DNA of 64,000 bases from Henriciella sp. (GTDB taxonomy: Bacteria > Pseudomonadota > Alphaproteobacteria > Caulobacterales > Hyphomonadaceae), in contig JASJAO010000001.1 of NCBI GenBank assembly GCA_030066975.1, positions 434,001 through 498,000 of the forward strand, given 5' to 3'. Positions 51,622 through 63,873 of the stretch are shown here, one piece after another (within the stretch, counting starts at the first letter, position 1; each line of letters begins with the position of its first letter). The notes beneath the pieces were generated by a model, which worked only from the letters and a program-made list of their open reading frames with translations, did no database searches and was not told where the DNA came from. Made by a program: the position numbers and the translations under genes.

Positions 51622-53346
51622 ATGCAAGCAAGAACCCCGAACGCGAACAGTATCGAGTTCAATTGCGGTGGCTTTGAAACTCTAAGCGAGGCGTTAGACT
51701 ATGCTGCGACCGGCGTAACCGGCCTAAACTTCTATTCCGTGCGTGGAGAGCTCGAATATGTGCTTACGTATGCAGAGCTTCAGGCGCGCGCGACTGAAAT
51801 GGCAGCCCGATTGTCGACTGAGACCGAACCTGGCGATCTGATCGGTCTCATTGCGGAAACAAGTCCGGATTTCGCGATTATGTTTTTTGCCTGCCAGTAT
51901 GCGGGTGTCTTGCCGGTGCCAGTCTCTGTGCCTGTAACGCTGGGCAGCAACGAATTCTACAAGGATCAGCTCAAGCGCATTTGCGAAACCGCCAATCTGC
52001 ATTGCCTGCTCGCGCCTAAATCGATCTTGAGTGTCGCACAAGATGCGCTTGAGCACACCCAAATCCAGGTCGGAAATCTTGATGGGTCGGATTTGTCGCG
52101 CGAGACCTCCCCGCTGCGCCCATTTGCAGCCGATGGCATGTGTTACATCCAGTTCTCTTCTGGAAGCACAAGCTCGCCCAAGGGCATTGTCGGCAGTCAG
52201 AAAAGCGTGACTACGAATTGCCGTGCCATTCAGCTGGGGCTCGAAGCCCGAGCCGGAGATCGTATCTCGTCGTGGCTGCCACTTTACCACGATATGGGAC
52301 TGATCGGTCAGTTCCTCGCGCCAATGATGGCTCAGCTGTCGGTCGACTATATTGACTCAAAATCCTTTGCGCGCAGACCGTCAACCTGGTTGAAACTGAT
52401 CAGTGAGAACAAGGCCACGCATTCCTACAGCCCAAGTTTTGGCTATGAAATCAGCGCAAAGCGTTGGCGTGGAGGGGAGCTTGATCTCTCCAGCTGGCGC
52501 GTGGCGGGCATCGGCGGTGACATGGTTCGCGAAGAAGCGCTTAAAAAGTTTGCCGATGTGTTCCGCGAGCACGGCTTTTGCGAAAAAGCGTTCGTGCCAA
52601 GCTATGGTCTTGCCGAAGCGACTGTGGCGGTGTCTTTCAGCCCCTTGCGGACAGGCTTTCAAGTCGACGTCATCAACTCCGATATCATGCGGTCTCAACA
52701 AAAGGCTGTCCCGGCGGACACATCGACTGAAGACCGCAATCGGCGGGCTTTGATCGCGTGCGGACAAGCGATCCCCGGACACGAGATGAAAATATGTGAT
52801 GATGACGGGAACGAAGTCGAAGAGCGTGTCGTCGGTCGCATCATGTTTCGCGGTGACAGTGTCTCGCCAGGGATTTTGGATCGCGACGCTGGTATTCTGC
52901 CACTGACCGATAAGGACGGTTGGCTGGACACAGGCGATCTTGGCTATTGGCTAAACGGTCAGCTTGTCATCACGGGGCGTCACAAAGACCTCATCCTGTG
53001 GAATGGACGAAACATCTGGCCACAGGATATCGAGTGGACCGCTGAACATGCCGGTGGCCGTCATATTCCAAAGTCAGCAGCGTTTAAGCTATCCGATGAT
53101 GACGGCAACGGACACATTTACCTGCTGGCGGAGTGTAAAGCCCGCAGACCTGAGCAACGTGAAGAGCTGATGTCTGAAATCACCGCAAACGTAAGACAGA
53201 CAGTAGGGGCACCGATCGAAGTGATTTTCGTTCCCACCCGCAGTTTGATTATGACATCTTCGGGAAAACTGAGCCGGATGCGGACCCGGCAGAAGTTTAT
53301 TTCTGGAGCGTTCGAACTCGAACACGCCAACTCTGAACTCGTTTAA
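51622..53346 (+). CDS. aasR: Fatty acyl-AMP ligase / acyl-ACP synthetase of the sphingolipid locus
   Basis: A 574-residue ANL enzyme of the fatty acyl-AMP ligase type. The P-loop is QFSSGSTSSPKG, LPLYHDMGLIG and SYGLAEATVAV follow, and the C-terminal domain has GRHKDLILWNGRNIWPQDIE. It probably activates a fatty acid and loads it on the ACP two genes downstream for serine palmitoyltransferase. In Caulobacter the corresponding aasR gene has the same neighbours (cerR, acpR, spt). Its stop overlaps the next start (TAATG). AAGGG precedes the ATG. Confidence 0.85.
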   Translation: MQARTPNANSIEFNCGGFETLSEALDYAATGVTGLNFYSVRGELEYVLTYAELQARATEMAARLSTETEPGDLIGLIAETSPDFAIMFFACQYAGVLPVPVSVPVTLGSNEFYKDQLKRICETANLHCLLAPKSILSVAQDALEHTQIQVGNLDGSDLSRETSPLRPFAADGMCYIQFSSGSTSSPKGIVGSQKSVTTNCRAIQLGLEARAGDRISSWLPLYHDMGLIGQFLAPMMAQLSVDYIDSKSFARRPSTWLKLISENKATHSYSPSFGYEISAKRWRGGELDLSSWRVAGIGGDMVREEALKKFADVFREHGFCEKAFVPSYGLAEATVAVSFSPLRTGFQVDVINSDIMRSQQKAVPADTSTEDRNRRALIACGQAIPGHEMKICDDDGNEVEERVVGRIMFRGDSVSPGILDRDAGILPLTDKDGWLDTGDLGYWLNGQLVITGRHKDLILWNGRNIWPQDIEWTAEHAGGRHIPKSAAFKLSDDDGNGHIYLLAECKARRPEQREELMSEITANVRQTVGAPIEVIFVPTRSLIMTSSGKLSRMRTRQKFISGAFELEHANSELV

Positions 53347-54284
53347 TGCAAGAACCGACCGCGACGTGTCGAGCGGGCGAGGGCGTCGTCGCTGTCACAG
53401 GCGCGACAGGCTTTATCGGGTCACACTTACTGTCTCGATTTGACGGGTTTGGTCAGCCAACGCGAGCACTTGTCCGCCACAGACGAAACCGAACGATAAA
53501 AGTCCCCGGTTCCACTGAGATAGTACCAGGATCGCTTCAAGACCGCGAGGCTATTTCGGCGCTGCTGGAGGGAGCACACACCTGTATTCATGCGGCGGGG
53601 GCGACGACTTCGATTGATGTGAACGGTTTCCACTCGGCCAATGTCATTGGGACCTTCAACATGGCTGCATGCGCGGCGACGACGGGCGTGGATCATTTCA
53701 TCTATGTGTCTTCACAGGCTGCGCGCGCGCCATGGATTTCAGACTATGCCGCGTCAAAAGCCATCAGCGAAACCGCCCTGGATCCGTTTCGGTCTCATAT
53801 GAAGATCACCATTATTCGCCCGCCCGCCGTCATCGGTCCGGGTGATCCCATGCTTCAACCGATGTTCGACCTTATGCGCAGCGGCTGGCTGCCAGCGCCG
53901 TCAGATCCACGAGATGAGATCCGTGAATTCGCCGTGATCTCAGTTCATGATCTGGTCGATCAAATCGTCGCGTCGGTATATGCTTCTGACAGCGTCACGG
54001 AACCGGTTGAGCCTTGCTCGATTTCTGCAACGAGTTGGAACCAGGTTGCTCTAGAAGCCAGCGAGACGCTACAGCACAAGGTTCGATTGCTACCAATCTG
54101 GCCAGGCGTTCTGAAGACTATTGGATATCTTGCTGATGGGGTGTCAAAACTCATTCGGCGTCCGTTGCCACTTTCACGCGGGAAAGCGCGAGAGCTGCTG
54201 GCTGCAGATTGGACCTATGAACATCCGGTTTCAGATGCCATGAGTTTGCGCGAGATTTTGAGAGAGTGCTTCCCGGATCATTGA
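53346..54284 (+). CDS. cerR: NAD-dependent epimerase/dehydratase-family reductase, probable 3-ketosphinganine/ceramide reductase
   Basis: A 312-residue extended SDR: TGATGFIGSHL cofactor motif at the N-terminus, catalytic Ser in YVSSQAA and YAASK. Position between the acyl ligase and the ACP/serine palmitoyltransferase genes matches cerR of Caulobacter, whose product reduces the 3-keto group in ceramide synthesis. General epimerase function cannot be excluded from sequence alone, but the locus strongly favours CerR. Confidence 0.82.
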   Translation: MQEPTATCRAGEGVVAVTGATGFIGSHLLSRFDGFGQPTRALVRHRRNRTIKVPGSTEIVPGSLQDREAISALLEGAHTCIHAAGATTSIDVNGFHSANVIGTFNMAACAATTGVDHFIYVSSQAARAPWISDYAASKAISETALDPFRSHMKITIIRPPAVIGPGDPMLQPMFDLMRSGWLPAPSDPRDEIREFAVISVHDLVDQIVASVYASDSVTEPVEPCSISATSWNQVALEASETLQHKVRLLPIWPGVLKTIGYLADGVSKLIRRPLPLSRGKARELLAADWTYEHPVSDAMSLREILRECFPDH

Positions 54285-54315: not shown

Positions 54316-54564
54316 GTGAGCGACAAGTCCAAGATATTTGCAACCATCTGCACGGTGCTGGCAGAGTATATCCCAGAAGGGACTGAGATTACTGGAGATA
54401 CCAAGATCGTTGCTGATTTGGAGATCGATTCAGTTGATGTTTTCGACCTGATCATGGAAGTTGAAGACGCTTATGATATCAGTATCTCGATGGAACTGAT
54501 TTCGACCACGCATACTGTGGGCGAACTTGTAGACGTAGTGGATGACTTGATCGGTGCTGACTAA
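54316..54564 (+). CDS. acpR: Acyl carrier protein dedicated to sphingolipid synthesis
   Basis: An 82-residue acidic four-helix carrier protein. The phosphopantetheine Ser39 is in LEIDSVDVFDL. It starts with GTG 31 nt after the reductase gene and overlaps the serine palmitoyltransferase start by 11 nt. It is not next to fatty-acid synthesis genes, so it should be a specialised carrier delivering the acyl chain to the condensing enzyme, like AcpR in Caulobacter. Confidence 0.9.
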   Translation: MSDKSKIFATICTVLAEYIPEGTEITGDTKIVADLEIDSVDVFDLIMEVEDAYDISISMELISTTHTVGELVDVVDDLIGAD

Positions 54565-55747
54565 AACCAAAGAGAACAAGCCGTTATTCGACAAATTTGC
54601 GGCAATTACCGAGCGTCATGAAGTGGCGAAAATGCTGGGTCAAAGCCCTATTGGTGTGCCTTTTGACAAGATCTTGTCGCCAACTCGGGCGCTGTTTCAG
54701 GGGCGAGAAATCACTTTGGTTGGAACCAATAACTATCTTGGTTTGACCTTTAACGAGAACGTTTGTCGCTCGATGATCCAATCGATCGAAACGATGGGCT
54801 CGGCGACGACGGGCAGTCGCCAAGCCAACGGGACCTATGGCGATCATGCGAAACTCGAGCAGGAACTCCAGACCTTTTTCGAGATGCAAAGCGCGATCGT
54901 CTTCACCACCGGCTACCAAACCAATCTGGGCGCCATAAGTGCGCTTGCGAGTGGGGACGATCATATTTTGATCGACGCTGACAGTCATGCCTGCATCTAT
55001 GACGCTTGCCGCCTCACCGATGCGGCGACCCACCGGTTCCGGCACAACGACCCTGAGAATTTGAACAGGAGATTGCAGCGCTTGCCGGATACGGGGGCGC
55101 GCCTCGTGGTGGTAGAAGGCATGTATTCGATGTTTGGCGATGTCGCTCCGCTGGCAGAGTTGGTGGAAGTTGCACATGCAAACGACGCTATGATTTTTGT
55201 TGATGAGGCGCACTCCGTCGGATGTTTCGGAGAAAAGGGAAGAGGGGTCGCCGAAGCCCAAGGCGTGCTCCACGATGTCGACTTCATCTCTGGGACATTC
55301 TCAAAGAGCCTCGCCTCTATTGGTGGGTTTTGCGTATCCAGGCATCCTGAGTTTGAGAGCGTTCGCCTCACCAGCCGCGCCTATATGTTCACCGCATCTG
55401 GGGCGCCGGCGAATATTGCTGCAGCGCGCGCCGCACTCCGGGAGTTGCAACACATGCCGGAATTGCGCGACGCGTTATGGGCGATGTCGAACAAGCTGCA
55501 TGGCGGGCTGGCTGACATGGGGTTTGACCTCTGTGCACCGGCGTCTCCTGTTATTGCCGTCAGACGGCCAGACGAGGCCACAGCCGTTCGTGAATGGAAC
55601 CAGCTTTTTGAACAGGGCGTGTATGTGAACCTTGCCGTTCCCCCTGCCACGCCGGGCGGAACAAGCCTGCTCCGCTTAAGCGTCAGCGCCGCACATTCGG
55701 AAGACGAAATCGACCAGGTGCTCGAGGCGTTCTCGAAGCTCAACTGA
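54554..55747 (+). CDS. spt: Serine palmitoyltransferase
   Basis: A 397-residue PLP-dependent alpha-oxoamine synthase. The pyridine-stacking region is DADSH145, the ring-nitrogen contact DEAH has Asp217 and His220, and the PLP lysine is Lys251 in TFSKSLA. GTNNYLGLTF near residue 57 is typical of bacterial serine palmitoyltransferases. 8-amino-7-oxononanoate synthase is the main look-alike; ACP, CerR and acyl-ligase neighbours decide for Spt. It starts with GTG inside the ACP gene and ends 1 nt from a convergent gene. It catalyses serine plus acyl thioester to 3-ketosphinganine. Confidence 0.9.
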   Translation: MLTKTKENKPLFDKFAAITERHEVAKMLGQSPIGVPFDKILSPTRALFQGREITLVGTNNYLGLTFNENVCRSMIQSIETMGSATTGSRQANGTYGDHAKLEQELQTFFEMQSAIVFTTGYQTNLGAISALASGDDHILIDADSHACIYDACRLTDAATHRFRHNDPENLNRRLQRLPDTGARLVVVEGMYSMFGDVAPLAELVEVAHANDAMIFVDEAHSVGCFGEKGRGVAEAQGVLHDVDFISGTFSKSLASIGGFCVSRHPEFESVRLTSRAYMFTASGAPANIAAARAALRELQHMPELRDALWAMSNKLHGGLADMGFDLCAPASPVIAVRRPDEATAVREWNQLFEQGVYVNLAVPPATPGGTSLLRLSVSAAHSEDEIDQVLEAFSKLN

Positions 55748-55748
55748 T

Positions 55749-56687
55749 CTATCTGAACGCGCCTTTCCGGAACAGTCGCCAGGCCAGGACCGGGGCGTGC
55801 AGGAGTGGGTATTTGCGCGCATGGTCGCTGACTTCGATTTCAGCCCCGCTATGTGATTTTATCTTCTCAAGCACATAGTCGAGGCCCGCATCGAATGTGA
55901 AAAACGCTTTCAGAACGCGAAAAGCGCCCATGGGTTTACCGATCACCCGCCGGGCGATCCAGCGGAGACGGCAAAAGTTACGGCGAAATGTGCCCACGTC
56001 CGGAAGCTGGATCGTAGACCCCGATATCCCGGGCGAAAACATCACCTCTGAAAGCTGCTGGTACCGCTCGGTGTGTTTCGCGACGATCTGTTTTGAACGC
56101 CCAACAGCGTCTTCAGGTCGAAGCTCTGTTCGATAACTCTCCATAAGACCGCGTTCCCAGATCGCCGTCTTCTCGATGTCGCCCCGCAGGAGTGGCGCCG
56201 TTTCTGCCAGGAAATGATGGGTGGCGTGAGCCAGCGTATCCACCAGATCTTCGCGTCGCTTCGGGTCGTTGCAGATTAAGAGCGTTGGTTGTGCAAACCG
56301 CGCCCAGAGCATGGATTCGAGCGCCGCTCCGCGCGCTCTGCGCCGAAACGCCGACAGACTGACGATCGAGTACTTGCTACGCAGACGCTCACCATCCGGC
56401 CCCTCGGCTTCGCAATAGTGAACGCTCGGCGGCGCGAGGAATGAACCGAGCTGTTTCAGACCAATTCCATGGACGTCCCGGTAGGAGTTCACCAGAACAT
56501 AGAAGTCGAGCATCTTGCCTGCAGCCTCTCCTGCGCGAAGACTTGAGCCATAAAACAGAAGCGCCTTTTCAACCCCTCCATGTTTGCGGCGAATTTCTGC
56601 CACCAGAGCCTCAGCGCGGTCACCAATAGGGCGTTGTTCGCGCTCAATGACGCGCCTGATTGAAGTGAGAACCTGTGCATCGGTCAT
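55749..56687 (-). CDS. Nucleotidyltransferase-fold protein of the ceramide head-group operon
   Basis: A 312-residue protein. The block FYGSSLR...LDFYVLV (about 45-67) matches the nucleotidyltransferase pattern hG-S-x12-D-h-[DE], but the second acidic residue is Tyr63 (Asp61-Phe62-Tyr63). The rest is helical with no recognised domain. It starts inside the stop of the ceramide-kinase-like gene (ATGA). Its place next to that kinase recalls the cpgA/cpgC genes of Caulobacter ceramide-phosphoglycerate synthesis, but I cannot say which, so no symbol is given. ATG at 56687 is preferred to one at 56702. Confidence 0.75.
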   Translation of the reverse strand: MTDAQVLTSIRRVIEREQRPIGDRAEALVAEIRRKHGGVEKALLFYGSSLRAGEAAGKMLDFYVLVNSYRDVHGIGLKQLGSFLAPPSVHYCEAEGPDGERLRSKYSIVSLSAFRRRARGAALESMLWARFAQPTLLICNDPKRREDLVDTLAHATHHFLAETAPLLRGDIEKTAIWERGLMESYRTELRPEDAVGRSKQIVAKHTERYQQLSEVMFSPGISGSTIQLPDVGTFRRNFCRLRWIARRVIGKPMGAFRVLKAFFTFDAGLDYVLEKIKSHSGAEIEVSDHARKYPLLHAPVLAWRLFRKGAFR

Positions 56688-57649
56688 CGGACAAACTCCC
56701 AAGACGGCGAGACCGACACATTGAACGTTTGATCGTCTGGAATTGGCAACGCTTCACCATCCAAAAGAACGGGGCCGTCTGTTCGAAAGGTCATCGCCGA
56801 ACACCCTTGGCTTGACAAGCCATGGTGTTCCAACCCGTTACGGGCACCGGTCAGAAGCGCTCTCGCGATGCCGAGGCGCATTTGGCGAATAGGCCACGTC
56901 GCCTCGGTGTAACCAATCGGTGCCTCACCGCGACCCCAGAACGGACTTAACCGCAGGCTCAACTCTCGAAATGTCGAAAACACAGAAAAAGTCTGTTCGG
57001 AGACATTCACTGGCATGCCCTCAGCGAGGGTTGAGAACTCAGAGGGACGCACCACGGGCAGACCGTCTGAGAATTTGGTCGAGTTAGGGAACAGTGCGAG
57101 CTGAGCAATGGCACGCGCGATTGAAACCACACCTCGCGTTTTTCCGTGCAGGTTCTGTTGTGTGTAAAGCATCAAGCGCGCCAAGGAGCCCGTCGAGAGC
57201 AAAAAACCCAGATAGGGCGTTTTGGTTTCCGAGGTCTCGACCAGTAGCGCTGTATGCATCGTGGACTCGTGAGTTTGGGGATCGCGTTTTCTTTGACCGA
57301 TGCGCTGCTTCAATGCCTGTGGATCCACGACCTTTACCCCGAGTAACTTATGGGCGAGGTTTGTGCTGCCGCCCGGCAAAACGGCGATGCGCGGCAACGC
57401 TAATCCCTGAGACGCGCCTTCGAAGCAAGCCGTGAGTGCGGCGACGACGGTGCCATCCCCACCTTCAACATAAACCGCGTCGCTTTCCTGCGATAATAAA
57501 GGTATCAGTGTCTCGCTCAATGGCTTGCTGCCATCGAAGTAGACGACCGGAATGTCTCCAAAGTCGACTGCGACCTGCGACAAGACCGACCCTTTTATAC
57601 TCACTCTGTGACTTTTGGGATTGATGATGAAGATCGGGTTCTGCGTCAT
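56684..57649 (-). CDS. cpgB: Diacylglycerol-kinase-fold lipid kinase, probable ceramide kinase
   Basis: A 321-residue lipid kinase of the DAGK/sphingosine-kinase fold: INPKSH at the N-terminus, the nucleotide loop GGDGTV (63-68), PGGSTN (92-97) and a C-terminal DGEALP motif. It probably phosphorylates ceramide, as CpgB does in the similarly organised Caulobacter locus. Both ends overlap neighbours by 4 nt, so it is tightly coupled to the LptG-like permease upstream and the nucleotidyltransferase-like protein downstream. A role on diacylglycerol is the alternative. Confidence 0.85.
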   Translation of the reverse strand: MTQNPIFIINPKSHRVSIKGSVLSQVAVDFGDIPVVYFDGSKPLSETLIPLLSQESDAVYVEGGDGTVVAALTACFEGASQGLALPRIAVLPGGSTNLAHKLLGVKVVDPQALKQRIGQRKRDPQTHESTMHTALLVETSETKTPYLGFLLSTGSLARLMLYTQQNLHGKTRGVVSIARAIAQLALFPNSTKFSDGLPVVRPSEFSTLAEGMPVNVSEQTFSVFSTFRELSLRLSPFWGRGEAPIGYTEATWPIRQMRLGIARALLTGARNGLEHHGLSSQGCSAMTFRTDGPVLLDGEALPIPDDQTFNVSVSPSWEFVR

Positions 57650-58701
57650 TTGACCCGCTCAAGGCTCAGATTGAGATGAAGACCTAATCCCAGCAGCAAT
57701 GCGATTGGAAGGCCGATGGCCATAGGCACAGAGACGCCGCCGCCCTCAGCCACCGTCTTTAGAACGCCATCGCATATGAAATACCCAAACCCGATGGCCA
57801 CCCCGATCATCAATCTTTGATCGCCGGTTTGGCGGCGTCCCAGGGCTTGCATCAGAGGGACTGCGATCAGCAAGAACCCCAGCGCGATAATCGGCATGGT
57901 GAGGCGGTCGAAGAACCAAACCAGATAGGCGGTCGAGGGACGCACACCTGAGCCTCTGATCTGCGACAGTTGATACTGGTCAACAAGAGACAGGTTGCGG
58001 GGGGAGGTTCCTAGCTTCTGTAATGTTATAGGTGTCTGATCTGTTTGCCATATTCGCGGGGGTGTCACCTCGCCATAGTCCAGACTGGTGCTTTTTGGCG
58101 AACTCAGAACCCAAGCCTGGCCTGCAAACCGTGCCTGCTCCGCATAGGTGACGGCTGAGATCTTGCCGCCTCCATCCCGGTGATAGATGACAATATCGGA
58201 TAGCTCATCGCCGCGGAGACCGCCAATCTCAACGAATGTATTCTCGTCTGCGATCCACAAGGTCCGCGGCTTGCCTGCATCCTCCTCCATAAACGCGTCA
58301 CCGCCGAGCCAGTTCTCAAGAGCAGATACGGTGCGCGGCAGCGTTTGATCAATCACAACCAGCGATAAGACAGCGACAAACAGAACCGCGGGAACAAGCG
58401 CCCGGATCTGCATGAATGGTGAGACGCTCATTGCTACAAATCCGACCAATTCCTGTCTCCGGATAAGGGACAGAAATGTGAGGAGCAAACTGACGAAAAG
58501 TGCGAACATGAAAATGCGATCATACAAGGAAGGCAGGCGCAGAAGTGCAAACTTAATGGCGTCTGCTGATGTCGCATCGTCTGGAAGAATATCGGCAGCG
58601 CCAATCGAGTCGACGACGCTAAGAAGCGCAAGCAGCGCGAACGTCGTGACGAACCAGCGGGCCAAAAACAGCTTTCCGAAATACCCCCGGACTATTCTCA
58701 T
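57646..58701 (-). CDS. LptF/LptG (YjgP/YjgQ) family permease, LptG-like
   Basis: A 351-residue inner-membrane protein with three N-terminal helices, a periplasmic beta-jellyroll (about 130-250) and three C-terminal helices, the LptFG layout and length. The ATG at 58701 overlaps the stop of the LptF-like gene by 4 nt; an earlier in-frame start would lie inside that gene. Canonical LptFG extracts lipopolysaccharide with the LptB ATPase. Coupling here to a ceramide kinase suggests a sphingolipid-dedicated paralogue. No ATPase gene lies in the window. Confidence 0.88.
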   Translation of the reverse strand: MRIVRGYFGKLFLARWFVTTFALLALLSVVDSIGAADILPDDATSADAIKFALLRLPSLYDRIFMFALFVSLLLTFLSLIRRQELVGFVAMSVSPFMQIRALVPAVLFVAVLSLVVIDQTLPRTVSALENWLGGDAFMEEDAGKPRTLWIADENTFVEIGGLRGDELSDIVIYHRDGGGKISAVTYAEQARFAGQAWVLSSPKSTSLDYGEVTPPRIWQTDQTPITLQKLGTSPRNLSLVDQYQLSQIRGSGVRPSTAYLVWFFDRLTMPIIALGFLLIAVPLMQALGRRQTGDQRLMIGVAIGFGYFICDGVLKTVAEGGGVSVPMAIGLPIALLLGLGLHLNLSLERVK

Positions 58702-59882
58702 GGGGAGGATCGTCTGGACTTGTCGGCGCCGTTCAGGAACCGCGGCAAACGGATCGACGGAAGCCCCGAAAGCGGAGGTTGAGCCATCGTCATTGCACTG
58801 CGCAGGAAAAGCGCCAATGCGAACACGATCACAACACCAATCACCGTCCAACTGCCGGCCCAGTGTGGGATGGCACCATCCAGAGCGAGCGATTTACCGA
58901 GTTCGAGAAATTGTTGGATCGCAATGAGAGTGACAAGCCCGATCAAGATCGCGTTTGATGGAGGATTGCGCCCGTAGCTCAGGCCGAAGGGCACGGCGAT
59001 CAGGGGCAAAACCAAGATCAGAATGAAACGGGCCAATTGATCATGGATTGAGACCATCGCTTCGATGGGTTCGATGGTCGAGTTCGCAAATTGAGGCGCG
59101 GTCGTTGCTGGCGCCCACAACTCCCATAGCGTCAGTTCGCGGACATCCTTTCCGCGCGCTCGGAACTGAGTGAGCGCTTCTGGAGGCCGCCAGTTCAGCT
59201 CATCAAACTCAAGTCGAGAACTCAGCGTTTGATCCGGGCGCAAATCAGCGCCCATGCCATTGTCGAGCTGCAACTCATCAATTGACCCGCCATTGCGAAC
59301 AAGGGCTCCGGACTCCGCTACGATAACGCGTTTGCCCCCATCGGGGTATCTTTCAAGGATGAAGGAACTCTCCAGGGCACCTGTGCTGCGATCGACATTT
59401 TCAGTCCAAATGGTCCAATCCTCTGCTTCAACAAACTTGCCCTCAATGAAAACCGTTTCGATGCTGGATTCCGCAATGGAATTGACCAAACCGCGATATT
59501 GATAACGCGAAAGCGGTTGCAGGATCGCGGATGTGATCAACAACACGCTCGCCAGTATGATGGCCATGATCATGAAGGGTTTGGAAATCATAAAGAGTGA
59601 CTTTCCCATGCTCCAAACCGCGACGAGCTCTCCGCTTCGACTGATCCGGCTGACAGTGATCAACACAGCGAGAAAGAAAGCTGCGGGAATGCCGATACCA
59701 GCATAGTGCGGGATCAAGTTGGCGAGCATGTAAACGGCTTCGCTTAAATTGCCGGGCGAACGAGAGACAAGGTCTGCAATTCGTAATAACCGCTCCAGCA
59801 AGAGAATGCTGACGATGAGCAAAAGTAGCCCGCCAAATACGCGCGTGCATTCGCTGAAAATATATCGCTGGATACGCTGCAT
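58698..59882 (-). CDS. LptF/LptG (YjgP/YjgQ) family permease, LptF-like
   Basis: A 394-residue permease: N-terminal helices (about 10-125), a periplasmic jellyroll (about 130-260) and C-terminal helices with PLIAVPFGLSYG. The start is uncertain: 59882 (MQRIQRYIFSE, as in LptF proteins) is preferred, but an in-frame ATG at 59924 is also possible, and neither has a strong ribosome-binding site. First gene of the four-gene - strand operon and paired with the LptG-like gene by a 4-nt overlap. Confidence 0.87.
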   Translation of the reverse strand: MQRIQRYIFSECTRVFGGLLLLIVSILLLERLLRIADLVSRSPGNLSEAVYMLANLIPHYAGIGIPAAFFLAVLITVSRISRSGELVAVWSMGKSLFMISKPFMIMAIILASVLLITSAILQPLSRYQYRGLVNSIAESSIETVFIEGKFVEAEDWTIWTENVDRSTGALESSFILERYPDGGKRVIVAESGALVRNGGSIDELQLDNGMGADLRPDQTLSSRLEFDELNWRPPEALTQFRARGKDVRELTLWELWAPATTAPQFANSTIEPIEAMVSIHDQLARFILILVLPLIAVPFGLSYGRNPPSNAILIGLVTLIAIQQFLELGKSLALDGAIPHWAGSWTVIGVVIVFALALFLRSAMTMAQPPLSGLPSIRLPRFLNGADKSRRSSP

Positions 59883-60018
59883 ACGGACGATTAGCTCACT
59901 TTTCGAATGTGTACACCCGTTCATTTTACGACCGCTCAGGATTTCCGCACACGAAAACTTGATTGCGATCTCTGCTTTTTTGCCTACCTATTGCCGCGAG
60001 CAGAAGAGATGAAGCTGC

Positions 60019-60495
60019 ATGATCTATCGTTTGTCCAGTTTGGCCCTGATGGCCATGACACAGGCTGCCGTCGCGCAGCCTGAGCTTGATATTCGCGACC
60101 ATGAAGCGCCGTCGACCTGCATTCCCGAAACAGGGCAGGTACAGGTGACTGTGGAAGGTGTTACGGCGGGCGGTATCCTGGCAGTTGAACTGTATCGCCC
60201 CAGCAACCGCGACTTCCTGAAAAAAGAGTCGCGGGTTCATCGGATCCGAGTTGCAGCAGAAGATGGCCCGCAAACGGTTTGCTTTGAGCCGCAACCGCCG
60301 GGACAGTATGCGGTGGCAGCTTATCACGACGAGAATGGTAATCGTGATCTCGATCAAAAGTTCAATCGCATGCCGAAAGAGCCGTTCGGGTTGTCGACAA
60401 ATCCAAAACTTCGATGGGGCATCCCAAAGTTCGAAGATGCAGACTTCGAGGTTCCGTCAGAAGGCGCCGCCATCACCGTTCGACTGCTGAAATAG
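60019..60495 (+). CDS. DUF2141 secreted protein
   Basis: A 158-residue protein with a signal peptide ending AAVAQ (about residue 20) and the DUF2141 pattern: GGILAVELY, then YAVAAYHDENGNRDLD, an Asp/Asn-rich loop that may bind calcium, and NRMPKEPFG. It is periplasmic by prediction. It is the first gene of the operon with the ceramide-synthase-like acyltransferase and divergent from the LptF-like gene. Its function is unknown; the context suggests a role in sphingolipid handling. Confidence 0.85.
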   Translation: MIYRLSSLALMAMTQAAVAQPELDIRDHEAPSTCIPETGQVQVTVEGVTAGGILAVELYRPSNRDFLKKESRVHRIRVAAEDGPQTVCFEPQPPGQYAVAAYHDENGNRDLDQKFNRMPKEPFGLSTNPKLRWGIPKFEDADFEVPSEGAAITVRLLK

Positions 60496-60534
60496 CGCTT
60501 GCCCCTCAGGGCGGCACGATTACTACTAACCTCT

Positions 60535-61680
60535 ATGACGGTGTCAGTAGAACAGGTCAAAAACGCGAGCGATATCAAAACGTTCGTTGAGTTGCCCTAT
60601 CGCGCTTATCGCGGCGAGCCGCACTGGCGGGCACCGCTCCGCATTGAGCGACGCGAACACTTCGATCCGGCCAAGAACCGCTCGCTCAACCAATTGAAGC
60701 CAAGTTACTTTCTCGCGTCGCGGCAGGGGCAAGTGGTTGGACGTATCGCGTCATTTGTGAATCCAATCCATCTGCAAAACCACGATGATCAGACCGGCCA
60801 TTTCGGATTTTTGGATACGCTTCATGCGCGCGATGACGAAACCGTGGTTGCGCTTCTCCAGGCCGCCGAAAGCGACCTTCGAGCGAAAGGCATGTCGCGC
60901 ATTGGCGGTCCCTACAATTTTTCAGTGAACGATGAGTGTGGGTTGCTTGTTGATGGGTTTGACACCCCGCCAAGCGTGATGATGCCCTATGGCCGCAGCG
61001 ACCTGCCTGAGATGCTGGAAGAAGCGGGCTATCTAAAAGCCATGGATATGTACGCGTTTCGCCACCGCATGGGCGATACGTTCTCAACCCCGCCTTTTGT
61101 ATCGCGCGTCAAGAAACGTTTTGAGACCGATCCAGCCGTGTCGGTGCGTCCTCTCAATATATCTCAACTCTATGAAGACATCGCACTGATTGTTGGCATT
61201 TTTAACGATGCTTGGTCAGAAAATTGGGGTTTCCTCCCGATCAGCGACGCAGAAGCCAGATTTCTGGCAGACTCAATGAAGCCCGTTTTGCAATCAGAAT
61301 CGCTGTGGATCGCCTTTGTCGACGACGAACCTGCAAGCTTCACGCTGATGATCCCAAATTTGAACGAAGCCACATTGGGACTGGATGGTCGGTTACTACC
61401 GTTCGGCTGGGCGGCCCTCCTCTATCGCATTAAGGTTGCGGGCGTGAAGTCGGCGCGTATTCCGCTGGCCGGAACGCGCAAGAAGTTTCACAAGACGAGG
61501 CGTGGCATGACGGCGACCGTTGGCGCCTGGGAGGCGTGTTTAAGCGCGCAACATGCTAAAGGGGTTCGTGAAGTTGAGTTTTCTTGGGTATTGGAAACGA
61601 ACAAAGACCTTTTAGGTCTTGCGGACATCTATGATTGCGACCGATACAAAACCTACCGGATCTATGAAAAAGCGCTCTAA
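60535..61680 (+). CDS. bcerS: GNAT-fold N-acyltransferase, probable bacterial ceramide synthase
   Basis: A 381-residue acyltransferase of the GNAT-like group. The N-terminal YRAYRGEPHWRAPLR block, GGPYNFSVNDECGLL and the C-terminal WVLETNKDLLGLADIY are conserved in the family I associate with bacterial ceramide synthase of Caulobacter. It would acylate the amino group of the sphingoid base. The ATG at 60535 gives the expected length; a TTG at 60499 is in frame. It lies 39 nt after the DUF2141 gene and overlaps the next gene by 17 nt. Confidence 0.82.
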   Translation: MTVSVEQVKNASDIKTFVELPYRAYRGEPHWRAPLRIERREHFDPAKNRSLNQLKPSYFLASRQGQVVGRIASFVNPIHLQNHDDQTGHFGFLDTLHARDDETVVALLQAAESDLRAKGMSRIGGPYNFSVNDECGLLVDGFDTPPSVMMPYGRSDLPEMLEEAGYLKAMDMYAFRHRMGDTFSTPPFVSRVKKRFETDPAVSVRPLNISQLYEDIALIVGIFNDAWSENWGFLPISDAEARFLADSMKPVLQSESLWIAFVDDEPASFTLMIPNLNEATLGLDGRLLPFGWAALLYRIKVAGVKSARIPLAGTRKKFHKTRRGMTATVGAWEACLSAQHAKGVREVEFSWVLETNKDLLGLADIYDCDRYKTYRIYEKAL

Positions 61681-62476
61681 AACGCTGGCTCCCGAGCCGC
61701 CACGGTCTGTCGAGACATTTGTTTTGGCCGGTGCGCGCGCGACCGGTGATCCGCTCGCTGAGGCGCACGGGGTGTCGTCTAAAGCCCACATAACAGTTGC
61801 CGGAACATCAATGATTGGGAGGGTTCTGGATGCCGTGTCCCAAAGCGCACAAGCAGGCGATGTGACCGTCATTGGCTTGCTGGACTATGACAATCTGCAA
61901 ATAACGGAAGCTTGGCCTTCTGCGCGCTTCGTGGATGGCGAGGACGGTCCGGCAGCAAGCGTCGATCGCGCGCTGGGCGGCACCCCAATGTCTGAGCCTT
62001 TTCTTGTCACAACCTGCGATCATGCTTTGCTCACGCCCATGATCGTCGACAAATTCTTACGAGACTCAACCACATCGAACGCTGACCTCACCGTCGCGCT
62101 GGCTAGGCGCGCCGATATTGAAGCGCGCTATCCGGACGCGAACCGGACCTATTTGAAGTTTGGTGACGGCGACTATTCAAGCTGCAACCTGTTCTGTCTT
62201 CTCACACCTGCTGCGCGAGAGGTCGTGAAGTTTTGGCAGGCGGCGGAGCAAGATCGTAAGCGCCCCTGGCGTATCGCCTGGCGGTTTGGGGTCATACGAG
62301 CGTTACGGCTCCTGATCGGTCGCCCCGACCTTGATCAGGTGTTTGCGATCATCTCCGGGCGCCTAGGCGTGAACATCCGACCGGTTGTGCTGCCTTTCGC
62401 CGATGCGGCGATTGATGTCGATAAGCCCGAAGACCTTACTCTTGTCGAGCGCGTTCTATCGGAGCGAAGCGTATGA
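61664..62476 (+). CDS. MobA-like nucleotidyltransferase-family protein
   Basis: A 270-residue Rossmann-like protein resembling MobA-type NTP transferases: TFVLAGAR at the start of the nucleotide site, SKAHITVAG, TTCDHALLTP in the metal-site position, and DVDKPEDL near the end. The usual GGxSxRMG loop is replaced by a looser GARATGDP. Its stop overlaps the flippase start (ATGA). It might activate a head group for the lipid, but the substrate is unknown. An in-frame ATG at 61631 is an alternative start. Confidence 0.78.
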   Translation: MKKRSKTLAPEPPRSVETFVLAGARATGDPLAEAHGVSSKAHITVAGTSMIGRVLDAVSQSAQAGDVTVIGLLDYDNLQITEAWPSARFVDGEDGPAASVDRALGGTPMSEPFLVTTCDHALLTPMIVDKFLRDSTTSNADLTVALARRADIEARYPDANRTYLKFGDGDYSSCNLFCLLTPAAREVVKFWQAAEQDRKRPWRIAWRFGVIRALRLLIGRPDLDQVFAIISGRLGVNIRPVVLPFADAAIDVDKPEDLTLVERVLSERSV

Positions 62477-63873
62477 GCTATCCCGCGCCGCCTCAGGCCG
62501 ATGGCATGGTCGGCAGGATCCTCAAGAATATGGGATTGCTGTTCGGCGGAAAGACATCCGCGGTTCTGATTGGACTGGCCGTGCTGGCTATCGCGGCGCG
62601 CGCCCTGACAATTGAAGAGCTTGGTATCCTGCTTCTGCTGTACGCCTTCATCGCGCTGATGACGGGCATCGCGACGTTCAAATCCTGGCAGGCCTTGATC
62701 CAATTTGGTGCCCAGCCTGTGGAAACAGGTGATTTGCCCAGATTTCACCGGCTGTTGCGGTTCTTGATCGGGCTCGACATTGCTGCGGCCCTGTTTGCGG
62801 CGCTTCTAAGTGTGACCGTCTTTCTGGTCATTCGTGCTCATCTTGGCTTACCGGATGAGATATTCTGGATCGTGATCGCCTACTGCCTGCTCTCGGCCAC
62901 CAACTTGCGATCAAGTCCGCTCGGCGTGTTGCGCTTGTATGACCGATTTGATCTGATCAGCTTGCATGACCAGGCCGTGCCGATCGTGCGGCTCACCGGC
63001 GCGAGTTTGGGCCTGATGTTCGGAGGCGGCCTCACCTGGTTTATTCTTGTATGGATGGCAGCGGCTTTAGCGACCAATCTGCTGATGCCCGCTCTCGCCA
63101 TTAGAGAACTCGCGCGTCGGGGGGCACTCAACGGACTTTTCTCCAGGCGCCTCACTCTGAAAGCCCCTGAGGCTGGCATCTGGCGCTATGTCTGGATGTC
63201 CAATATCGATGCGACGATCAACCTGGTGGATAAACAGATGCCCACCCTTCTGGCCGGGGCGTTGCTGGGCCCTGCCTTCGCGGCGATGTTCAAGATTGCG
63301 CGGGACATTTCTGATGTGCTGGGCAAAGGCGCGCGGTTGCTCAATCAGGTTTTGTACCCTGAGCTTGTGCGTTTGATGATCGCCGGCAGCGCCGCCCGTG
63401 CCGTTCGGGTCATCATCCATACAAGCGCATATTTGCTCGGCGCCGGGATTGTGCTTGCCGCGCTGATCAACCTATTCGGCCCGCCACTTTTCGCGATTGC
63501 ACTGACCGATGCATATGAAGGTGTGGCGCCGATCGCCATGATGCTGGTGATCGCTGCCGCTTTGTTGGGAGCAACAATCCCGATCTATTCTGGCCTGTAC
63601 GCGCTGGGAAGCCCCGGCCAAGCGGCCTTGTCTCGTGCAATTTCGGTTGCCCTAACTCTCATTCTCTTTGTGACGCTTTCGCATGCGACCGGGCAGTCCG
63701 GGCCGGGGTGGGCGATGGTTATTGGCGCCGGTGCGGGGCTCGTGCTTGCCAGCACGATCGCGCTCTTGCGGGCTCAGGGCGTGCGCGATGCATCCGGCCA
63801 GGCGGATTTCAGCGATCTGGTCAATGACGCCACAAGCTCGCCATCAGCGGATCCAACCGCCAAATCGGGCTGA
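62473..63873 (+). CDS. Oligosaccharide/lipid flippase-like membrane protein (MOP superfamily)
   Basis: A 466-residue protein with about 12-14 hydrophobic segments. The arrangement (GLLFGGKTSAVLIGLAVLAI, then IEELGILLLLYAF) is that of Wzx/MurJ-like polysaccharide flippases. It overlaps the MobA-like gene by 4 nt and closes the ceramide-synthase operon. It may flip a lipid-linked or sphingolipid precursor. The hydrophilic C-terminal tail (about 30 residues) is encoded over the 3' end of the antisense HIT gene. Confidence 0.8.
   Translation: MSYPAPPQADGMVGRILKNMGLLFGGKTSAVLIGLAVLAIAARALTIEELGILLLLYAFIALMTGIATFKSWQALIQFGAQPVETGDLPRFHRLLRFLIGLDIAAALFAALLSVTVFLVIRAHLGLPDEIFWIVIAYCLLSATNLRSSPLGVLRLYDRFDLISLHDQAVPIVRLTGASLGLMFGGGLTWFILVWMAAALATNLLMPALAIRELARRGALNGLFSRRLTLKAPEAGIWRYVWMSNIDATINLVDKQMPTLLAGALLGPAFAAMFKIARDISDVLGKGARLLNQVLYPELVRLMIAGSAARAVRVIIHTSAYLLGAGIVLAALINLFGPPLFAIALTDAYEGVAPIAMMLVIAAALLGATIPIYSGLYALGSPGQAALSRAISVALTLILFVTLSHATGQSGPGWAMVIGAGAGLVLASTIALLRAQGVRDASGQADFSDLVNDATSSPSADPTAKSG

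Follow-up and report, generated by a model that had tools for sequence, protein, structure and literature searches.

Second copies of components of the lipopolysaccharide (LPS) exporter Lpt have been described in Caulobacter crescentus, where Olea-Ozuna et al. 2024 (PMC11324152) identified CC_1168, CC_1156, and CC_1155 as LptC2, LptF2, and LptG2, with a proposed role in moving phosphosphingolipids from the inner to the outer membrane, transport itself being outside that study. The available text of the paper also reports that CC_1168 and CC_1156 mutants are co-fit with CC_1159 and that orthologs occur in Hyphomonas neptunium and Sphingomonas wittichii. The route of bacterial sphingolipids to the outer membrane is called open both there and in a 2024 paper from the Klein laboratory (PMC11087976), the accessible part of which states that neither a flippase nor a lipid transporter has been identified for sphingolipids. 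Here we analyze an LptF/LptG-like permease pair, lptF2 and lptG2, in a 64,000-nucleotide (nt) stretch of a Henriciella sp. genome (GenBank assembly GCA_030066975.1, contig JASJAO010000001.1, positions 434,001 to 498,000), referred to as the window. As with Caulobacter LptC2/F2/G2, these are second LptFG copies within a cluster for serine palmitoyltransferase (SPT, encoded by spt) and ceramide phosphoglycerate; unlike the Caulobacter set, they stand in the operon order lptF2-lptG2-cerK-cpgC. Comparison of many genomes suggests that the pair is reserved for sphingolipids on their way to the cell surface and borrows the ordinary motor. The core idea is already published for Caulobacter, and the comparative evidence (one pair per surface lipid, one motor) is the new part.

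Both window proteins belong to the LptF/LptG permease family, scoring above the curated cut-off of Pfam LptF_LptG (PF03739; 27.9 bits). Four LptFG genes exceed that cut-off in the 99.98% complete assembly, and a fifth match (20.2 bits) falls below it. The original prediction held that the window pair is a dedicated paralog of the LPS exporter, and a second, canonical pair was indeed found at C22:125039-127221, flanked by holC and pepA (DNA_pol3_chi 98.7 bits, Peptidase_M17 406.3 bits) on one side and topA on the other. The E. coli lptFG genes likewise adjoin holC and pepA. This canonical pair is sister to that of the genome holding Henriciella locus L043 (72.6 and 70.1% identity); the window pair shares 20.6 and 16.7% identity with it. 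The genome encodes a single LptB above the cut-off (364.7 bits, with the next ABC protein at 143.5), one LptC match above the cut-off (26.2 bits) beside LptA and LptB, and LpxC (C13:200458-201276). By these profile searches, the genome has LpxC, two LptFG pairs, and one motor. As predicted, no such ATPase gene lies near the window pair, the closest LptB-like ABC match being ~42 kb away (C1:447469-448011, 79.7 bits).

How many LptFG pairs a genome has, and of which type, depends on SPT and LpxC. A class sample of 143 genomes, each at least 95% complete, was searched with E-value thresholds of 1e-100 for SPT, 1e-12 for LptFG, and 1e-20 for LpxC, and SPT was found in 23, LptFG in 137, and LpxC in 122. 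At least four LptFG genes are present in 8 of the 23 genomes with SPT versus 1 of 120 without (G015; Fisher P = 1.1e-6, a value that, like the one below, is descriptive only because the sets were picked through SPT and the genomes are related by descent). The sample was widened to 389 genomes, of which 58 have SPT, including the first 23 and one (G182) counted by a fragment slightly below the family cut-off. Of the 21 genomes with both SPT and LpxC, 20 carry two pairs, G018 having a fifth gene besides, and G057 carries a single pair. Among the 37 with SPT but not LpxC, 28 have exactly two LptFG genes, six have none (G048, G206, G266, G319, G368, and G377), and three differ (G308, one gene, at the edge of a contig; G181, three genes; G254, four genes). 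Pair number is associated with LpxC across the 58 genomes (P = 2.3e-13), and exactly two genes were found in 15 of the 23 LpxC-lacking genomes newly added by the extension. In 19 of the 28 one-pair genomes lacking LpxC, both genes share a contig with spt and are no more than ~15 kb from it. The pattern recurs within families: in f1, f13, f25, f38, f45, and f95, genomes with SPT and LpxC have four genes versus two in a member with LpxC but not SPT, and in f27 the member with LpxC has four and the five without it have two. A third set comprised 37 named genomes hand-picked from 80 spt loci (at least two of them also in the class sample, the match places of G397 and G401 being equal to those of its G092 and G200). 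At least four genes were found in 22 of its 23 LpxC-bearing genomes, the exception being an incomplete-looking Hellea metagenome-assembled genome (MAG; G424) with two; of the 14 lacking LpxC, 12 have one pair, including Sphingomonas, Sphingopyxis, and Blastomonas, and two have none.

A phylogenetic tree was constructed from 121 concatenated LptF and LptG pairs (100 fetched stretches, 19 named-locus pairs, the window pair, and its genome's canonical pair), every fetched pair being retained. It covers 34 of the 43 LptFG-bearing genomes that have SPT and lack LpxC (23 of 31 from the class sample and 11 of 12 named), together with 36 genomes represented by both pairs; G124, G181, G194, G253, G292, G307, G308, G358, G412, G169, G304, and G424 were left out, as were the unlinked genes of G406 and G407. 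In Azospirillum picis (G406), PF03739 matches stand singly on separate contigs (C5:238445-239494 and C31:36111-37160) and the spt-linked pair stands together. One branch (Shimodaira-Hasegawa approximate likelihood ratio support 100, length 0.7) splits 44 canonical pairs from 77 others. The canonical pairs comprise 32 unlinked pairs, those of all 10 placed genomes with LpxC but not SPT, and those of G057 and G042. The 77 include all 29 pairs labeled spt-linked (28 within ~15 kb, G187 at ~25 kb), all 35 placed pairs from genomes with SPT and without LpxC (G254 counted twice), nine other second pairs, and, from four genomes outside the Alphaproteobacteria (G413, G414, G415, and G422), pairs that look canonical. 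The two pairs of G254 are L200 and L201, one of which is on a very long branch. Every alphaproteobacterial genome placed with both pairs (32 of 32) has one of each type. Trees of LptF only and LptG only recovered the same canonical clade with support of 100, and a 46-row tree (mixture model, bootstraps) supported the canonical alphaproteobacterial (100/100), IIa (100/99), and IIb (100/100) groups. The window pair clusters with the spt-linked pairs of type IIa, outside the canonical clade, as expected of a dedicated paralog.

Type IIb is spt-linked in Thiogranum, Wenzhouxiangella, Nitrospirales, Thermodesulfobacteriales, and Pseudomonadales MAGs and in Nitrospirillum-like alphaproteobacteria (L073, L168, L169, L177, L178, L179, L208, L217, and L223). 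A single origin was considered by holding all spt-linked pairs together as one clade, which was rejected (approximately unbiased test, P = 2.65e-5) for a group named after the tree was seen and with long branches present. Since IIb does not join IIa, the sphingolipid-linked pair was probably recruited at least twice. It has been suggested that the gammaproteobacterial clusters derive from an alphaproteobacterium (PMC11324152, in the text available); the LptFG sequences here do not show that origin, the species named in that paper lying outside this set.

The two types share the residues that face LptB and differ on the substrate side. Like canonical LptB2FG (5l75, 6s8h, and 6mhu), the window pair has the sequence family, the F-G gene pair, and the LptB-facing contacts, given in E. 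coli numbering as Y6/E84/R292 of LptF and Y10/E88/R301 of LptG (PMC5548808 and PMC6744409, as far as available). LptF2 aligns with solved LptF (6mhu_F, E = 2e-8), with equivalents of Y6, E84, and R292, and LptG2 with solved LptG (6s8g_G, E = 1.8e-14, residues 5-332), with equivalents of E88 and R301; the latter phmmer alignment covers the region of the periplasmic beta-jellyroll between transmembrane helices (TM) 3 and 4. In alignments of 44 canonical and 64 type IIa rows, E84 of LptF is present in 44 and 64, E88 of LptG in 44 and 61, a basic residue at LptF 292 in 44 and 62, and one at LptG 301 in 40 and 61, respectively. The window pair has glutamate at both coupling-helix positions (F84 and G88) and arginine at both loop-2 positions (F292 and G301). 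Unlike canonical LptB2FG, type IIa is linked to sphingolipid genes and has a new acidic-basic pair at LptF 29-30 beside R33 (position 29 acidic in 0/44 canonical versus 64/64 IIa rows; position 30 basic in 4/44 versus 61/64). It has also lost the basic residue at LptG 40 (38/44 versus 1/64), and the one at LptG 41 is rarer (29/44 versus 13/64). The window pair has the type IIa signature of E, R, and A at LptF 29, LptF 30, and LptG 40. R33 of LptF, close to these positions, contacts the 1' phosphate of lipid A, and K40 of LptG the 4' phosphate (PMC6744409, from the portion accessible). The signature was derived from the very rows described, with no independent test set. Its LptF part is present in 34 of 34 LPS-less IIa rows and absent from all nine IIb rows. 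By alignment, then, LptB-facing residues are kept in both types and the LPS-contacting side of TM1 differs.

Two other candidate markers were rejected. LptG position 34, a lysine (K34) in E. coli, carries an acidic residue in most rows of either alphaproteobacterial type (38/44 and 60/64). The NCBIfam LPS-export cut-offs (TIGR04407 and TIGR04408) fail to separate the types because the genome's own canonical LptF misses its cut-off (211.8 bits), as does the window pair (190.4 with a cut-off of 230, 166.9 with a cut-off of 240), and because an LPS-less Sphingopyxis pair (L093:15750-18061), the sole pair of a genome lacking LpxC, passes both (270.7 and 299.1 bits). Annotation by these cut-offs would call the likely sphingolipid transporter of L093 an LPS exporter, a warning that database models can label the sole LptFG pair of LPS-less sphingomonads as LPS export.

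LptB was searched in 64 genomes, with one copy found in 54, two in G110, and none in nine. Seven of these nine also lack LptFG and LpxC, and the remaining two are G146 and G290. In the Reyranella and Enhydrobacter genomes (L103 and L086) and the g50 genomes (G048, G206, G266, G319, and G368), outer-membrane lipid export must run without the Lpt ABC transporter. Two tandem SPT genes and one LptB, with no LptFG or LpxC match, were observed in G377 (C37:12838-15522). No two-pair class genome has two LptB copies: 19 of the 20 have one, and G290, a 620-contig assembly, has none. Of 18 LptB surroundings from LptFG-bearing genomes lacking LpxC, 15 contain an LptA-like gene and 14 an LptC-like one, counts that come mostly from weak BLAST matches to the proteins of the window's genome, supplemented by Pfam checks for six genomes; the LptC of G041 stays below the Pfam cut-off, and the two Sphingopyxis genomes have neither gene in these surroundings. 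On these counts, most LPS-less bacteria retain the genes for motor and bridge together with a single type II pair. The predicted sharing of LptB is indicated by one LptB in the window's genome and by the lack of any two-pair class genome with two. Of the separate route to the surface that was also proposed, the inner-membrane permease pair stands; the motor looks shared, and the LptC/LptA bridge is probably shared too.

Linkage to head-group genes was assessed in the 80 named spt loci, 48 of which span 5 kb or more before spt and 7 kb or more after it; 33 of these 48 have LptFG close to spt. Both LptFG and cerK/cpgC are present in 29 loci, LptFG only in four, head-group genes only in none, and neither in 15, a split by which LptFG near spt goes with head-group genes. 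The last class includes Reyranella-type loci, of which the two searched genomes (G402 and G408) have no LptFG.

We consider it likely that LptF2 and LptG2 form the membrane-spanning half of a second extractor of the LptB2FG type, dedicated to the (phospho)sphingolipids of this cluster, most likely ceramide phosphoglycerate. The substrate, the physical use of LptB, and the use of the LptC/LptA/LptD bridge are what we infer from the comparisons above. Once made and flipped, a sphingolipid would pass from the inner membrane's outer leaflet into the cavity of LptF2/LptG2. A dimer of the one LptB in the genome would bind the conserved coupling helices and drive the lipid out, and the lipid would then be handed to the periplasmic bridge (LptC and LptA, encoded once, with LptB) and so reach the outer membrane.

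The best-surviving alternative, which we nevertheless regard as unlikely, retains a sphingolipid exporter and makes its substrate mainly glycosphingolipid, or several ceramide lipids, in place of ceramide phosphoglycerate. Sphingomonads make glycosphingolipids in place of LPS and hold a single type II pair, and four of the 33 LptFG-bearing spt loci have no cerK/cpgC nearby. The other 29 of those loci argue for a substrate made with cerK/cpgC, as does translational coupling to these genes in the window. It is less probable still, and we reject, that the window pair is an ordinary extra LPS exporter (a dosage or backup copy) sitting in the cluster by chance: the Pfam family is the same and a type II pair (L093) can pass the LPS-export cut-offs, but the window pair falls in a separate clade with low identity to its genome's canonical pair, type II is what remains in genomes lacking LpxC, and second pairs track SPT. 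A role as scaffold or regulator of the coupled head-group enzymes, and not as exporter of the finished lipid, is suggested by the overlap with cerK kept in the nearest relatives but is scarcely credible given that nearly all members retain the glutamates of the coupling helices and the arginines that contact nucleotide, and that many lineages have lptF2G2 away from cerK, on the other strand near cerS (for example L083, L089, L100, and L101).

Several observations weigh against the proposed sphingolipid-dedicated extractor. LpxC was the sole LPS marker used in the genome counts. In nine of the 28 one-pair genomes lacking LpxC, at least one gene of the pair lies off the spt contig or more than 15 kb from spt (G358 has one of its two genes near spt), and six of the 15 loci with neither LptFG nor head-group genes (L046, L064, L074, L078, L113, and L115) come from genomes with LptFG elsewhere; linkage is therefore frequent, not universal. 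Because seven genomes with SPT (five of g50, Reyranella soli, and Enhydrobacter) gave no LptFG, LptB, or LpxC match, ceramide making is not always paired with LptFG. G377 has SPT and LptB with no LptFG, G057 has SPT and LpxC yet the canonical pair only, and G254 lacks LpxC yet has two type II pairs. Unlike Caulobacter, whose spt cluster contains an LptC2-like gene (L100:3233-3922, Pfam LptC 54 bits), this genome yielded no LptC2, the search for a second LptC being by Pfam profile, which a divergent LptC2 could escape.

More broadly, we somewhat favor a view of Lpt as a general lipid exporter in which interchangeable LptFG pairs set the substrate on a shared LptB and bridge. Sphingolipid pairs would have been recruited at least twice, and lineages losing LPS would have dropped the LPS pair, so that their entire Lpt machinery came to export sphingolipids. 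This would account for the Lpt genes kept by sphingomonads, which are described as LPS-less (PMC11324152 and PMC10964400, in the text available). The genome comparison sharpens the published suggestion into an assignment that can be tested: a permease pair for each surface lipid, a common motor, and a short residue signature separating the types. The word LpxC is absent from the main text of PMC11324152, and its available portion contains no LpxC relation, LptFG tree, LptB count, or residue analysis. No other paper on LptFG and sphingolipids, and none on an LpxC/SPT relation, a shared LptB, or the signature, was found in the accessible literature, with preprints and subscription journals largely uncovered.

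Features of the sphingolipid locus, with positions in the window
Feature	Position	Strand	Evidence
aasR-like fatty acyl-AMP ligase	51622..53346	+	NCBIfam NF006624 655.4 bits, cut-off 600
cerR-like reductase	53346..54284	+	Pfam Epimerase 67.9 bits; position
acpR, acyl carrier protein	54316..54564	+	Pfam PP-binding 37.4 bits
spt, serine palmitoyltransferase	54554..55747	+	NCBIfam NF047599 567.3 bits, cut-off 500
cpgC-like head-group gene (CC_1161 position)	55749..56687	-	33% identity to Caulobacter L100 gene after spt
ATGA overlap cerK/cpgC	56684-56687	-	4 nt
Ceramide-kinase-type gene (cerK; DAGK fold; CpgB/CC_1160 position)	56684..57649	-	Pfam DAGK_cat 34.7 bits
ATGA overlap lptG2/cerK	57646-57649	-	4 nt
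lptG2, LptG-like permease type IIa	57646..58701	-	Pfam PF03739 146.4 bits; 6s8g_G match
ATGA overlap lptF2/lptG2	58698-58701	-	4 nt
lptF2, LptF-like permease type IIa	58698..59924	-	Pfam PF03739 187.5 bits; 6mhu_F match; residue signature
DUF2141 protein	60019..60495	+	Pfam PF09912 98.2 bits; same place in nearest relatives
cerS-like ceramide synthase (CC_1154 position)	60499..61680	+	41% to Caulobacter L100 gene after lptG2
NTP transferase (CC_1153-like by position)	61619..62476	+	Pfam NTP_transf_3 42.1 bits
Possible lipid flippase (CC_1166-like)	62473..63873	+	Pfam Polysacc_synt 25.5 bits, below cut-off 28.2

The four minus-strand genes and their three junctions are as originally described. 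In a survey of 20 loci with all four genes on one strand, the window included, three overlaps with ATG starts occur in three further loci (L044, L047, and L049), and L043 and L045 also have three overlaps but with GTG at the second junction. These counts indicate that coupling is kept in the nearest relatives and is looser further away. Overlaps alone were rejected as evidence, since the E. coli lptF and lptG genes have one base in common and an lptF-lptG overlap is by itself ordinary; the unusual feature is that lptG2 is coupled to head-group genes. By position and similarity, the kinase (DAGK_cat cut-off 23.6 bits), in whose translation a GGDGT loop is visible, occupies the place of CpgB (ceramide kinase) and the fourth gene that of CpgC. 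The original prediction called the fourth gene nucleotidyltransferase-like, a label that did not hold: it has no match in Pfam or NCBIfam profile searches and aligns instead with the CpgC-position (CC_1161) gene of Caulobacter L100, which is likewise without a Pfam match. A head-group role is assigned to CpgC (CC_1161) in the available text of PMC12275187 and PMC11324152.

The predicted neighbors spt, acpR, cerR, and a ceramide-synthase-like gene are borne out by profiles, position, and similarity to Caulobacter L100, the cerS-like gene having no Pfam match. From position, similarity to L100, and published roles (PMC11324152 and PMC12275187, where available), the cluster is assigned to the ceramide and ceramide phosphoglycerate pathway. 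Directly beyond the window on the same contig (L007) are a HIT-like gene (below the Pfam cut-off) and a CDP-alcohol phosphatidyltransferase of the CpgA type, followed further on by a HAD phosphatase, a nucleotidyltransferase, and a GMC oxidoreductase. The window's gene order between aasR and the NTP transferase is shared by Henriciella and Hyphomonas loci (L043, L044, L045, and L047), and the flippase-like gene is downstream of the NTP transferase in Henriciella and upstream of aasR in Hyphomonas.

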